From Homoserinibacter gongjuensis (GTDB lineage: Bacteria > Actinomycetota > Actinomycetes > Actinomycetales > Microbacteriaceae), in the NCBI RefSeq assembly GCF_030161875.1, contig NZ_BSVA01000001.1:1-64000 (forward strand): DNA of 64,000 bases. Direction: 5' to 3'. Positions 12,996 through 34,082 of the stretch are shown here, piece by piece. The position numbers were made by a program, and so were the translations under genes. The first letter of the stretch is position 1; each line of letters starts with the position of its first letter. The notes below the pieces were generated by a model that did no database searches, had not been told where the DNA came from, and was given only the letters and a program-made list of their open reading frames with translations.

Positions 12996-13071
12996 TGGTG
13001 GATCTGAGGGGACTCGAACCCCTGACCCCCTGCATGCCATGCAGGTGCGCTACCAGCTGCGCCACAGACCC
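12996..13071 (-). tRNA. tRNA-Ala (anticodon GGC), CCA encoded
   Basis: A complete cloverleaf of 76 nt reads on the minus strand. The acceptor stem GGGTCTG pairs with CAGATCC and contains the G3-U70 wobble pair that marks alanine tRNAs. The anticodon stem CCTGC/GCAGG closes the loop ATGGCAT, giving GGC. The T loop GGTTCGAGTCC is standard, and the genome encodes the 3' CCA. It lies between the TetR gene and rsfS. Confidence 0.97.
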
Positions 13072-29502: not shown

Positions 29503-32500
29503 GCGCGCTCCAGCTCGATCGTCACGGTGGAGGCATCGCCGACCGGCGTCGCTCCCCACCAGCCTCACCCGACACCAGGCTGGTGGCAAGCGTCTCGGCC
29601 GCGATCAGCTCGCGGTGCGCCTCGATCGCGGCCACGGCATCCGCGTCGCCCGTGAGCGTGAGCCGGATGCGGTCGCTCACCTCGAGCCCGGCGTCCTTGC
29701 GGGCCTGCTGCACGGCGCGCACGACGTCGCGCGCGAGCCCCTCGGCGGCGAGCTCCGGCGTGACCACGGTGTCGAGCACGACGTAACCATCGCCACTCAG
29801 GAAATGGATCGCGAGGTTCGCATCGCTCGACGTAAGTTCAAGTTCGTATTCACCGGGCTCGAGAGCAAAGCCCGCCACCACGGGACTCCCGTCACCGGTG
29901 ATTTCCCAGTCCCCCGCCTTCGAAGCTCGGATGACCGTCTGAACGTCCTTCCCGAGTCGCGGCCCCAAGGCACGGGCGTTCACTACCAGGCGCCGAGAGA
30001 CGATGTTGTCCTGGTCCTCATCCTCGCCGCGCGCGCTGTCATTGAAGATAACTCGCCTGACATTGAGCTCTTCGCAGAGAACATCCGAGAACGGACGAAT
30101 GTCGGGCCCGTGCACCCCCGTTAGTGTGATCGAGTCAAGTGGCAGACGTACGCGCAAACCATGCGCCTTGCGCAACGCGAGTCCCGCCGAGGCGACCTCG
30201 CGCACGCGATCCATCGTGCGCACGAGCTCGGTGTCGATCGGGAACTCGGCGGGGTCGGGCCAGTCGGTCAGGTGCACGCTCCGCCCGCCGGTGAGGCCGC
30301 GCCAGATCTCCTCGGTCACGAGCGGCAGCAGGGGCGCCGCGAGCCGCGTGTAGGTCTCGAGCACCGTGAAGAGGGTGTCGAAGGCGTCGCGGTCGTCTCC
30401 CACCCAGAACCGGTCGCGGCTGCGCCGCACGTACCAGTTGGTGAGCACCTCGGCGAAGTCGCGCAGCGCCGCGGCGGCGAGCGGTGTGTCGAAGTCGTCG
30501 AGGTGCCGCGTGACCTCCTGGATGAGCTCGCGCGTCTTCGCGAGCAGGTAGCGGTCGAGCGGATGCGAGGAGTCGGTGCGGCGGGCGGCCTCGTAGTCGG
30601 CGCTGTTGGCGTAGAGCGTGAAGAAGTAGTAGCTCGACCACAGCGGCAGCATGACCTCGCGCACGCCCTGGCGGATGCCCTCCTCCGTCACGATGAGGTT
30701 GCCGCCGCGGATCACCGAGCCCGACAGCAGGAACCAGCGCATGGCATCCGCGCCGTCGCGATCGAAGACCTCCGAGACATCCGGGTAATTGCGCAGCGAC
30801 TTCGACATCTTCTGCCCGTCGGAGCCGAGCACGATGCCGTGGCTCAGCACGTTCTTGTAGGCCGGGCGGTCGAAGAGCGCTGTCGCGAGCACGTGCATCA
30901 CGTAGAACCAGCCGCGCGTCTGCCCGATGTACTCGACGATGAAGTCGGCCGGGTTGTGCCCCGGTTCTCCGTCGACACCGTCGAACCACTCGCGGTTCTC
31001 GAACGGGTAGTGCACCTGCGCGAACGGCATCGACCCCGAGTCGAACCACACGTCGAGCACGTCCTCGATGCGGCGCATCCTCGAGCGGCCGGTCGGGTCG
31101 TCGGGGTTGGGGCGCGTCAGCTCGTCGATGTAGGGGCGGTGCAGGTTCGGCTCGCCCTTCTCGTCGCGCGGCAGCATGCCGAAGTCGCGCTCGAGCTCCG
31201 CGAGCGAGCCGTACACGTCGATGCGCGGGTAGGCGTCGTCATCCGACTTCCACACCGGGATGGGGCTGCCCCAGTAGCGGTTGCGGCTGATCGACCAGTC
31301 GCGCGCGTTCGCCACCCACTTGCCGAACTGGCCGTCCTTGACGTTCTCGGGAACCCAGTTGATCTGCTGGTTGAGCTCGCCCATCCGCTCCTTGATGTCG
31401 GGCACGCGCACGAACCAGCTCGAGACCGCCTTGTAGATGAGCGGGTTGCGGCAACGCCAGCAGTGCGGATAGCTGTGCTCGTAGCTCTTGACCTGCAACA
31501 GCCGCTTCTCGGCGCGCAGCTTCTGCACGAGCGGCTTGTTCGCCTCGTCCCAGCGCAGTCCGGCGACATCCGGCACCTGCGGCAGGAAGCGTCCGCCGTC
31601 GTCGAGGGAGAGCACCACCGGGATGCCGGCGGCGGCACTCGTGACCTGGTCGTCTTCACCGTAGGCGGGCGCCTGGTGCACGATGCCCGTGCCCTCGCCC
31701 GTGGCGACGTAGTCGGCCACGAGCAGCTGGAAGGCCTCCGGGCCGTAAGCGTCGAGATAGTAGTCCCAGAGCTGGTCGTAGCGGATGCCGCCGAGCTCGG
31801 CCCCGGTGAAGCGGCGCGGCTCGATCGCGGCGAGCGCGGCAGCGGCATCCGGGTAACCGAGGTCCTTGGCGTAGGAGGCGACCGTGTCGGCCGCGAGCAG
31901 GAACCGGGCGGAGTCGCCCTCCAGACCGTTCGCGGCGCCGGCCGGGCCCGCGGGAACCACGACGTACTCGATCGCGGGGCCCACGGCGAGCGCGGCGTTC
32001 GTCGGCAGGGTCCACGGGGTCGTCGTCCAGGCGAGCGCGTTCACGGCCGTGAGCCCGAGCGCCTCCGCCTTCTCCCCCACGAGCGGGAAGGTAACGGTGA
32101 CCGACTGGTCCTGTCGCATCCGGTACACGTCGTCGTCCATGCGCAGCTCGTGGTTCGAGAGCGGGGTCTCGTCGTTCCAGCAGTACGGCAGCACCCGGAA
32201 GCCCTCGTAGGCGAGGCCCTTCTTGTACAGCTCGGAGAAGGCCCAGATGACCGACTCCATGAAGGTCACATCGAGCGTCTTGTAGTCGTTCTCGAAGTCG
32301 ACCCAGCGCGCCTGGCGGGTGACGTAGTCCTGCCACTCCTGCGTGTAGTGCAGCACCGACTCGCGCGCCTTCGCGTTGAAGGCGCCGATGCCCATCGCCT
32401 CGATCTGGCCCTTGGTCGTGATGCCGAGCTGGCGCATGGCCTCGAGCTCGGCGGGCAGGCCGTGGGTGTCCCAGCCGAAGCGGCGATGCACCTGCTTGCC

Positions 32501-32760
32501 GCGCATCGTCTGGTAGCGCGGGAAGACGTCCTTGGCGTAGCCGGTGAGCAGGTGGCCGTAGTGCGGCAGGCCGTTGGCGAACGGCGGGCCGTCGTAGAAG
32601 ACCCACTCGGGCGCTCCTCGCGCGCCTCGACGGACGCCGCGAAGGTGTCGTCGGTCTTCCAGTGCTCGAGGATGCGCTTCTCGATCTCGGGGAAGCGTGG
32701 GGATGCGGGCACGCCCTCTCCGGCGTTCTCACCGGGGGCCGCGTTGCGGGGGTAGCTCAT
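29499..32760 (-). CDS. ileS: Isoleucyl-tRNA synthetase, type 2 (eukaryotic-like)
   Basis: Charges tRNA-Ile; 1087 residues after correction. The HIGH-like motif lies in [16 protein letters not shown] near residues 60-75, and KMSKS is in [11 protein letters not shown]. The [12 protein letters not shown] form, [10 protein letters not shown] and the overall length place it with type 2 enzymes, which in other bacteria are tolerant of mupirocin. Two one-base losses occur: at 32609-32611 near residue 50, which separates the true start from the long frame, and at 29554-29557, after which the protein ends [11 protein letters not shown] with TGA at 29499 overlapping folC. A T-box leader controls it. 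Confidence 0.95.
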
Positions 32761-32764
32761 CCGA

Positions 32765-33003
32765 TCCGTCCGTGTCGTGCGTGGAAATGTCACACGAGGA
32801 CGACGGATGCCGCGGTACCACCTCGCTTGCCGCATCCGCTCTCCGAGGAGGCGTGTGCGACCGCTCATTCACGCGGTGACGGGCGCACCCGCTCGGGTCT
32901 ACTGCCTCGCTCCTGGGTTTCGAGACGGCGCTGCGCGCCTCCTCAACCAGCGGAGAGGGGTTTCTTCCGAGGACTCCCCGGTGATGGCCGGATCGATGTC
33001 GGT
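32765..33003 (-). promoter_or_regulatory. T-box leader of ileS (short Stem I, translational type)
   Basis: On the minus strand a hairpin CCGG-CCATCA-CCGG (32978-32991) presents ATC (32983-32985), an isoleucine codon, in its loop and is followed by GGAGTCCTCGGAAGAA, as in actinobacterial ileS leaders with ultrashort Stem I. A Stem II-like segment CAGTAGACCCGAGCGGG follows. The T-box core GAGGTGGTACCGCGG (about 32809-32824) is enclosed by GGATGC/GCATCC arms, and the ileS start lies about 50 nt downstream. Uncharged tRNA-Ile should pair with T-box and specifier and free the ribosome site. A dispersed repeat is inserted in the Stem I-Stem II linker. Confidence 0.9.
32915..32953. repeat. Dispersed palindromic repeat inside the ileS T-box leader
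   Basis: The unit GGGTTTCGAGACGGCGCTGC to GCGCCTCCTCAACCAGCGG is a single copy of the same family as at 21972, 26339, 37451 and 38727. In the leader RNA it reads GGTTGAGGAGGCGCGCAGC and folds on itself, sitting between Stem I and Stem II of the T-box. Confidence 0.9.
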
Positions 33004-33009
33004 TCGTCG

Positions 33010-33015
33010 ATTCTA
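33010..33015 (-). promoter_or_regulatory. Probable -10 element of the ileS operon
   Basis: TAGAAT on the minus strand lies about 7 bp upstream of the first conserved leader sequence, so transcription would begin near 33003. No convincing -35 hexamer is present at 16-18 bp, which is common in Actinobacteria. The hairpin at 33043-33097 lies immediately upstream. Confidence 0.55.
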
Positions 33016-33024
33016 GCGGTGAAT

Positions 33025-33097
33025 CGCGAGCGCTACCCGTTTCCGCGAGCGCTACCGGTCTGCGGGCCGCGCTCGCGGATTTCGGTAGCGCTCGCGG
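33025..33097. repeat. Direct and inverted CGCGAGCGCTACC repeats overlapping a stop codon
   Basis: CGCGAGCGCTACC occurs at 33025-33037 and 33044-33056, and its inverse complement at 33084-33096. The second and third copies form a 15-bp perfect stem (33043-33057 with 33083-33097). The stop codon of the DUF1648 protein lies in the first copy, and the ileS promoter is just downstream, so the hairpin may end the DUF1648 transcript. Confidence 0.8.
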
Positions 33098-34082
33098 TGT
33101 ACGCCGCGAGCAGGGCGGCGCCCGTCTCGGCGTCGTCGACGGTGACCACGAAGCGCCGTCCGTCGCGGCGTCGCACCTCGATCGCCTCGCCGCCACGCGT
33201 CACCACGCCGAAGCCGTTGCCGGGCGCCCAGCGCCACCCCCAGCCGCCGAAATCGGCGAGCGGCTCGATATGGGCCGTCTGCACGCGGTCGATGTCGGCG
33301 GAGCGGATGCGCACCCGCGGCCAGCCGAAGGGAAGGGAGCGTACGAGCAGTCCCGTGGCATCCACGCGCACCCGCCACACGGTGGCGATCGAGGCGAGGG
33401 CGAGCAGCAGCAGGGGCGCGATCGCGATGGGCCACAGCGCTCCGTCGCTGATGGCGATCGCGAATACGGCAGCGGCGAGCACGACGCCGAGGCCGCCGAG
33501 GATCGCGGCGAGCGCACCGGTGGGCACCCGCGTCGTCGCGATCCAGACGCTGCGCTCGCCGGGCACGAGCGTCAACGGCCGGGCGGGGGTCGCATCCGTT
33601 CCCGGGCGCACGGCCTTCGGCAGCACGAACCAGGCGGCCACCCCGACCAGCACGGAGCCGATGAGGGCGAGGCCGAGCCAGCCGTCGATGCCGGGGGCGT
33701 CACGGGCGTCGTCGAGTCCGCGCTGTACGGCGACGGATGCGGTGACGGTGCCGCCGACGAAGAGCGCGGTCACGAACGAGAGCACCGCGAGCAGCTTGTG
33801 GGTGACGGTCGGAGCCGCGCCGCGTGCCGTCGCCAGGAACGCCGCGAACATCGCCGTGAGACCCCCGGCGAGGCCGGCGGTGAGCGCGAGGGACGACCAC
33901 GGGGCGCCGAATCCGTCGGGGCCGTCCGGCCCCCAGTGGATGGCGATCGGATCGGGCAGCTGCGGCAGCCAGGCGAGCTGGAGCGCGACGGCGACCGCTC
34001 CCGCGATGAGCGGAAGTCCGACGGCCACCACCCAGTACGAGAGGGGCAGGCGGGCGCGAGGCGGGCGGTCGGAGGCGGTCAT
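33033..34082 (-). CDS. DUF1648-type membrane protein
   Basis: Protein of 349 residues with about six membrane helices. The segment LPDPIAIHWGPDGPDGFGAP near residues 41-60 is the DUF1648 signature. The C-terminal part (from about residue 235) looks like a membrane-associated PH-type domain (VDATGLLVRSLPFGWPRVRI). The gene follows a YtrA-like GntR regulator with an ATGA overlap, an arrangement seen in several Gram-positive bacteria where the regulator controls its own small operon, often responding to cell-envelope stress. The role is unknown. The last ~20 residues are encoded within a repeat hairpin. Confidence 0.82.
   Translation of the reverse strand: MTASDRPPRARLPLSYWVVAVGLPLIAGAVAVALQLAWLPQLPDPIAIHWGPDGPDGFGAPWSSLALTAGLAGGLTAMFAAFLATARGAAPTVTHKLLAVLSFVTALFVGGTVTASVAVQRGLDDARDAPGIDGWLGLALIGSVLVGVAAWFVLPKAVRPGTDATPARPLTLVPGERSVWIATTRVPTGALAAILGGLGVVLAAAVFAIAISDGALWPIAIAPLLLLALASIATVWRVRVDATGLLVRSLPFGWPRVRIRSADIDRVQTAHIEPLADFGGWGWRWAPGNGFGVVTRGGEAIEVRRRDGRRFVVTVDDAETGAALLAAYTASATEIRERGPQTGSARGNG

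Follow-up and report, generated by a model that had tools for sequence, protein, structure and literature searches.

A REP-like palindromic element probably inserted into the Stem II terminal loop of a class III ileS T-box leader

The ileS leader in the window (the whole 64,000-nucleotide stretch of DNA analysed in this study) carries a palindromic unit at the distal tip of Stem II. We consider it quite likely that this unit is a REP-like element that entered the Stem II terminal loop, that it does no more than lengthen that loop, and that the insertion is tolerated in a switch that still works, because the Stem II tip is free to vary. The proposed mechanism is that a palindromic REP-like element, from a family dispersed in the genome, was inserted into the Stem II terminal loop of a class III ileS T-box, where in the RNA its hairpin would extend Stem II past the S-turn. 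The added length would face away from the groove that binds tRNA, from the IIA/B pseudoknot and from the discriminator. The leader retains the specifier AUC, the S-turn, IIA/B and the T-box sequence, and ileS translation would still be set by the charging of tRNA-Ile. The insertion thus appears neutral, and the switch is most likely still working and controlling ileS translation. The change in geometry that had been feared is not supported; what is of interest is that such units recur, in three genomes.

Class III T-boxes are defined by a short Stem I with the specifier in a 5-6 nt apical loop (PMC10482949, excerpt). The leader in the window has a Stem I of this form, with a helix that is invariant in 32 aligned leaders and is joined to Stem II by a sequence, GGGGAG, that is conserved in the alignment. 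Stem II has an S-turn between its helices, as seen in the alignment, the covarying pairs and a held-out covariance model; IIA/B follows it, recognized by a sequence conserved in the alignment, and the T-box sequence and a predicted helix hiding the Shine-Dalgarno region precede ileS (Table 1). The leader is a class III, translation-type ileS T-box, and its membership rests on these structural features rather than on its RF00230 score. At the Rfam gathering score no T-box was found in the window, but a relaxed search did recover the leader, at 33.6 bits (E 5.1e-06; gathering cut-off 93 bits). The score is weak because the leader is of the short-Stem-I type; in the printed alignment, the Stem I of the RF00230 model is about 70 nt longer. 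All 40 columns that are invariant among 30 other leaders are kept in the window leader, and the number is 40 with or without it. Like the class III ileS T-boxes of Nocardia farcinica and Mycobacterium tuberculosis, it has a six-nucleotide apical loop that presents AUC, a Stem II with an S-turn, IIA/B, Stem III, the T-box sequence and a predicted sequestration of the Shine-Dalgarno region, but unlike them it has a 58-nt Stem II tip that is mostly dispersed genomic repeat.

Table 1. Positions in the window of ileS and of the parts of its T-box leader
Feature	Position	Strand	Remark
ileS	29522-32760	-	start codon 32758-32760, stop at 29522
Shine-Dalgarno region GACGGAU	32764-32770	-	read from sequence; three bases 5' of the ileS start
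AUCCGUCGUC strand	32799-32808	-	predicted partner: Shine-Dalgarno region 32766-32770 and CGGAU over start codon 32759-32763
T-box sequence AGGUGGUACCGCGG	32810-32823	-	sequence, RF00230 match, congener leaders
T-box leader, Rfam RF00230 match	32793-33005	-	below gathering score
Stem I to IIA/B domain, held-out covariance model R2 match	32873-32997	-	79.1 bits, E 2.4e-17
Stem IIA/B element CGGGUGCGCCCGUC	32878-32891	-	sequence as in relatives; identification from PMC7583486 (excerpt)
Stem II basal helix, 3' strand CCGAG	32892-32896	-	covarying pairs
S-turn, 3' half AGUAGA	32898-32903	-	invariant or nearly invariant columns
Stem II distal helix, 3' strand GAGG	32905-32908	-	predicted fold
REP-like palindromic unit, RNA sense CCGCUGGUUGAG-stem-CUCGAAACCC	32915-32953	-	Stem II distal tip
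Stem II distal helix, 5' strand CCUC	32955-32958	-	predicted fold; pairs with GAGG 32905-32908, encloses the unit
S-turn, 5' half AAGAA	32962-32966	-	invariant columns
Stem II basal helix, 5' strand CUCGG	32967-32971	-	covarying pairs
Stem I CCGG-CCAUCA-CCGG	32978-32991	-	specifier AUC 32983-32985, 6-nt apical loop
Probable -10 element TAGAAT	33010-33015	-	by eye

By eye, a -10-like hexamer stands at the equal position in the six congener leaders printed, as TAGAAT in five and as TAGAGT in G003. A consensus scan found no promoter near the ileS leader, and no transcription terminator was found within 32750-33150. Several GGTAGCGCTCGC / GCGAGCGCTACC repeats lie at 33014-33110, directly upstream of the ileS promoter region, and these also occur in G005 and G008. 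The sole tRNA found in the window is tRNA-Ala (GGC), at 12999-13071 on the minus strand. The window copy of ileS has its frame broken near 32615 (L001) by a one-base difference that is absent from an overlapping contig end, and this looks like an assembly or sequencing error.

To place the unit within the leader, ileS leaders were collected from congeners, the family and the order, and from the 98 usable stretches a set of 32 was picked to span a range of relatives and of tip lengths; the held-out set is the same 32 without the leaders of the window genome and of G003 (n=30). In the 32 leaders, the columns 5' of GGAAGAA pair with the columns 3' of AGUAGA. This basal helix is CUCGG/CCGAG in the window and UUCGG/CCGAA, UCCGG/CCGGA, UUUGG/CCAAA, CGCGG/CCGCG and others elsewhere. 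Across the 30 held-out leaders, 100% of cells in the basal helix are paired, with three of five pairs changed on both sides, and in the distal helix 85% are paired, with all five pairs changed on both sides. The covariation score of these leaders, from which the structure itself was drawn, is 0.441 compared to a shuffled mean of 0.129 and to at most 0.104 when the structure is slid. The held-out model found the window leader with the score given in Table 1, the runner-up match in the window reaching 15.8 bits, although the E-values of such home-built models are rough. It puts 48 nt, the unit included, in the Stem II terminal loop, where the model itself has 7, and this 48-nt stretch is enclosed by two covarying helices and the S-turn.

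The sequence-only reading had described a dispersed repeat within the ileS T-box, and the genome-wide pattern counts given below and the two covariance searches agree with it on both points. It had, however, put the unit in the linker that separates the specifier hairpin from Stem II, and this is wrong: the unit is bracketed by the strands of Stem II, UCGG(AAGAA) at 32962-32970 and (AGUAGA)C-CCGA at 32893-32903, and so caps Stem II inside both strands and the S-turn. The element taken there for Stem II is presumably the IIA/B element that follows. As the unit lies in the Stem II tip and not in the linker, the spacing of the functional parts is unchanged, and the suggestion that the placement of specifier, Stem II and T-box bulge is disturbed finds no support. 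Whether the segment is simply a normal stem of this leader class had been left to a covariance-model alignment, and here the answer is divided: leaders of this class normally have a variable stem-loop at this position, but in the window its contents are an inserted repeat. At its edge, the window leader has ACC between the 5' half of the S-turn and the CCUC strand, and it has UAGACC, as do L037, L045, L063, L071 and L082, where most leaders have UAGAACC; the S-turn edge is therefore not identical to that in solved structures.

Fold predictions, which ignore tRNA, pseudoknots and tertiary contacts, are in keeping with a hairpin at the tip. Alone, the unit is predicted to form a hairpin of -17.2 kcal/mol (z -1.71; matched by 9 of 200 shuffles), which bears out the earlier description of it as self-folding, and the flanking CCUC and GAGG extend this predicted hairpin toward the S-turn. 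The whole 82-nt Stem II segment is no more stable than its shuffles (z -0.71; matched by 46 of 200). When the 285-nt leader is folded to minimum energy, Stem II is present and tipped by the unit, IIA is a hairpin, and the AUCCGUCGUC strand pairs with the Shine-Dalgarno region and start codon, as expected of a translational switch. In published structures, the S-turn lies midway along Stem II and clamps the duplex of codon and anticodon, and the IIA/B pseudoknot stacks on the same stem (PMC7583486 and PMC10651847, excerpts). A two-strand construct in which the distal loop of Stem II was deleted and the stem gained two G-C pairs bound tRNA-Ile with a Kd of 29 nM compared to 24 nM (PMC10482949, excerpt). 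Since deletion of the distal loop was harmless to tRNA binding in that work, a hairpin added at the tip should likewise point away from the contacts that matter.

The length of the tip by itself is ordinary. Measured from GGAAGAA to AGUAGA, the Stem II tip is 11-58 nt long (median 23) in 107 of 110 loci, a count that includes the window leader as its second copy (L033) and from which L062, L095 and L103 yielded no segment; L052 was mis-bounded at 11 nt and is really longer, so that the true 11-nt tip is that of L039. The window tip is the longest in that set at 58 nt, followed by G003 at 56 nt. In the wider family, tips as long or longer exist without the unit of the window, and most long tips are not REP-like. 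A comparison of leaders with and without the unit had been proposed as a check. Eight congener leaders were sampled; in seven the unit is missing, and the tips of these seven are 11-28 nt long and quite different.

A sample of 398 genomes of the family was searched with two patterns that demanded exact motifs, so more cases may exist. Among the matches listed for units near GGAAGAA, most resemble coding sequence, and the matches in G322, G109 and G053 were rejected because they are not in T-boxes. The pattern for Stem II tips of 37 nt or more matched at 41 places in 40 genomes, but the reversed control was about as frequent (41), which makes the tip-length pattern alone unspecific; it is the downstream T-box core that identifies a leader. 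Of 30 long-tip places read, 24 have this core and six do not, and in 10 further ones, besides the duplicate of the window leader, none shows the arms by eye in the printed letters. A clear unit is present in three leaders, in one orientation: that of the window, of subtype TTGAGGAG..GTCTCGAAACC; that of G003 (L038), of subtype TCGAGTAG..GTATCGAGGCC, in a genome with 39 matches to a broad pattern compared to 0 for the control; and that of G157, from another genus (L193/L236). In G157 the 12-base motif CTGGTYGAGTAG has 25 matches genome-wide compared to 4 for the control.

Four other leaders were left uncounted. CGCTGAGCCTGTCGAAGCG occurs in the Stem II tip of G431 (L230), but the genome gave a single match for either of the two forms looked for, one pattern being ill-suited to the Stem II copy. 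G110 (L258) has a palindrome that is unit-like in the opposite sense, and G030 (L048) has a REP-like stretch in Stem III; CTGGTYGAGTAG has no matches in either, although that motif is not the form proper to G110 or G030. The leader of G100 (L242) is diverged, yet its genome holds CTGGTYGAGTAG 21 times compared to 6 for the control.

The core of the unit is 32916-32951, read on the plus strand as GGTTTCGAGACG-stem-CTCCTCAACCAGC or, with the inner stem spelled out, GGTTTCGAGACG-GCGCTGCGCGCC-TCCTCAACCAGC; the leader RNA has the complement. A narrow pattern, GGTTTCGAGAC-N5-20-CTCAACCAGC, has 40 exact matches genome-wide compared to 0 for the reversed-pattern control. One of these, C1:3267481, is the window locus again in the other contig end, leaving 39 distinct loci: the 3,061 bases around it are identical to the window at 99.97% with one gap, and the contig ends therefore seem to overlap, by about 56 kb. 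From copy to copy the arms are constant and the inner stem varies, yet it is palindromic each time, and several copies (L012, L017, L021; also 181474- / 181524+) have an inverted second copy nearby. None of the eight congeners has the narrow subtype, which was found in five of 99 genomes, including that of the window. A broad pattern has 156 matches in the window genome, two of which (32916 and 37454) are expected to be counted twice. The congeners have 196 (G002), 39, 46, 58 and 51 (G003-G006) and 20 (G008), with none in G001 and G007, and G026, of another genus, has 10; the reversed control had one match over all ten genomes (the places behind these counts were listed in part). As judged from these patterns, the family is REP-like, and its subtypes vary from one species to another.

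Like the REP/REPIN elements of the GTAG and CGTC superfamilies (PMC3733652, excerpt) and the REPINs of Pseudomonas fluorescens (PMC3116915), the units are imperfect palindromes of about 36 nt with many dispersed copies, some neighbouring inverted pairs, and subtypes that differ by related species. In those superfamilies the GTAG or CGTC tag stands at one end of the palindrome; here, by eye, the inner stem is adjoined by CGTC in the window subtype and by GTAG in the G003 subtype, both within a larger palindrome. Unlike in REP/REPIN systems, pairing reaches past the inner stem to the outer arms, and no RAYT-type Y1_Tnp (PF01797) gene was found in any of 12 genomes, whereas the positive control detected it in five of 14 known genomes. 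A RAYT of known kind is therefore rejected as mobilizer as far as tested. DUF222-HNH genes occur in all nine genomes of the genus, with 5-11 matches in most but also two in G001 and one in G007, both unit-free, and the unit stands at five of 30 DUF222-HNH loci; this candidate is unsupported and a mere lead. Since no Y1_Tnp gene was found, it is the dispersal of the copies, and only that, which suggests a mobile family. The open-licence literature yielded nothing on REP or RAYT in Actinobacteria, no paper matching the letters of this repeat (the best 15 of 297 being unrelated by title), and, among the eight papers listed on that subject, no report of a REP inside a riboswitch (PMC3110155, excerpt, included). 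The word Actinobacteria is absent from the main text of PMC3733652, and PMC5552033 (excerpt), among the best 15 of 698 papers on palindromic repeats in Microbacteriaceae, has 'palindromic' solely in a CRISPR reference. A parallel is offered by the recB REPs of two Xanthomonas species (PMC3733652, excerpt), where different repeats likewise occupy one tolerant site in related genomes, although there the site is a coding gene and here it is the loop of a structured regulatory RNA.

The units of the window genome (G000) and G003 could descend from one ancestral insertion that later diverged or was converted by the resident family. They have equal place and orientation, and their flanks are alike on both sides (CCTC..CC / GCGAGGC). 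However, the ileS DNA tree joins G000 to G002 and G004 (support 92), and G003 first to G006 (72), then to G008 (68) and then to G005 (78). Some of these supports are modest, but the leaders of G002, G004, G005, G006 and G008 lack a unit, so that these five relatives intersperse and a single gain needs several losses. The two units are also of different subtypes. A single insertion is thus rather unlikely in our estimation, and the tree favours separate insertions for G000 and G003.

It could also be argued that the unit tunes the switch, either because Stem II, lengthened and rich in G+C, would fold more quickly or be more stable, or because a nuclease or an RNA-binding protein would act on the hairpin of the unit, in which case the isoleucine response would differ from that of congeners. 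Three genomes have units at one place in one orientation, which would suit such a role. For the first four pairs at the base of Stem II, the predicted probability is 0.72-0.74 in the window leader, near the top of the range in the eight congeners (0 to 0.75). However, unit-bearing G003 is low (0.20), so stabilization is inconsistent; seven congeners with tips of 11-28 nt keep an equal core, and the distal loop was dispensable in vitro in a published construct (PMC10482949, excerpt). We regard tuning as unlikely, and a tolerated insertion that merely lengthens the Stem II loop as the better account.

The same recurrence raises the question of targeting. Assuming (not measuring) that units can land at any intergenic place, that 10% of 3 Mb is intergenic, that each genome has 50 copies and that the target is 20 nt, about one match would be expected by chance in 398 genomes, and three were observed; this is not strong evidence of targeting. 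A bolder proposal is that the Stem II tip of actinobacterial ileS leaders is a recurrent landing site, reached independently by at least three subtypes through a RAYT-less mobilizer that prefers hairpin loops in single-stranded DNA, with the units reused as RNA stems. This would be speculative, and we hold it to be decidedly improbable.

There is little to suggest that the insertion broke the T-box and left ileS constitutive or read from elsewhere. The unit-bearing G157 leader has no recognizable IIA/B and scores 37.8 bits, and in the minimum-energy fold of the whole window leader Stem I is unformed and pairs with the coding start instead. The fold predictions of unit-free congeners also vary widely, however, and the window leader keeps every one of the invariant columns. 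G353 seems by eye to lack IIA/B yet has no such unit, so the loss is not tied to insertion, and a broken switch is very improbable. That the tip is a normal, vertically inherited Stem II stem-loop resembling the repeat by accident is very unlikely, since, although its location is that of a normal variable stem-loop and the short flanks of G000 and G003 are alike, the pattern to which its 36-nt core conforms has 39 distinct loci in the genome while the reversed control has none, seven of eight congeners have quite different tips and G003 has another subtype.

The leaders with and without the unit form natural riboswitch pairs that differ in one arm, and they indicate which part of a T-box can accept tens of extra nucleotides. 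An abundant REP-like family is documented in this genome group, with no RAYT found. The T-box model is not overturned, and the finding fits the structures.

Several observations concern other leaders and other repeats. The ileS T-boxes of G157 (L193/L236) and G353 (L251) seem by eye to be without the IIA/B pseudoknot and to have a shorter Stem I, GATCCGTTATCRGCGG; in vitro work has found that pseudoknot to be essential for tight tRNA binding. In L230 (G431), a palindromic motif, GAGCCTGTCGAAG, is present in both Stem II and Stem III, each form occurring once in the genome. G338 has 83 copies of TGAGCCTGTCGAAG, another type of palindromic repeat, with 0 to 4 copies in six other genomes searched. 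Lastly, G026, from another genus, has an exact 36-nt copy of the window unit (L195) outside any T-box, between genes that by eye are alcohol-dehydrogenase-like and GIY-YIG-like.
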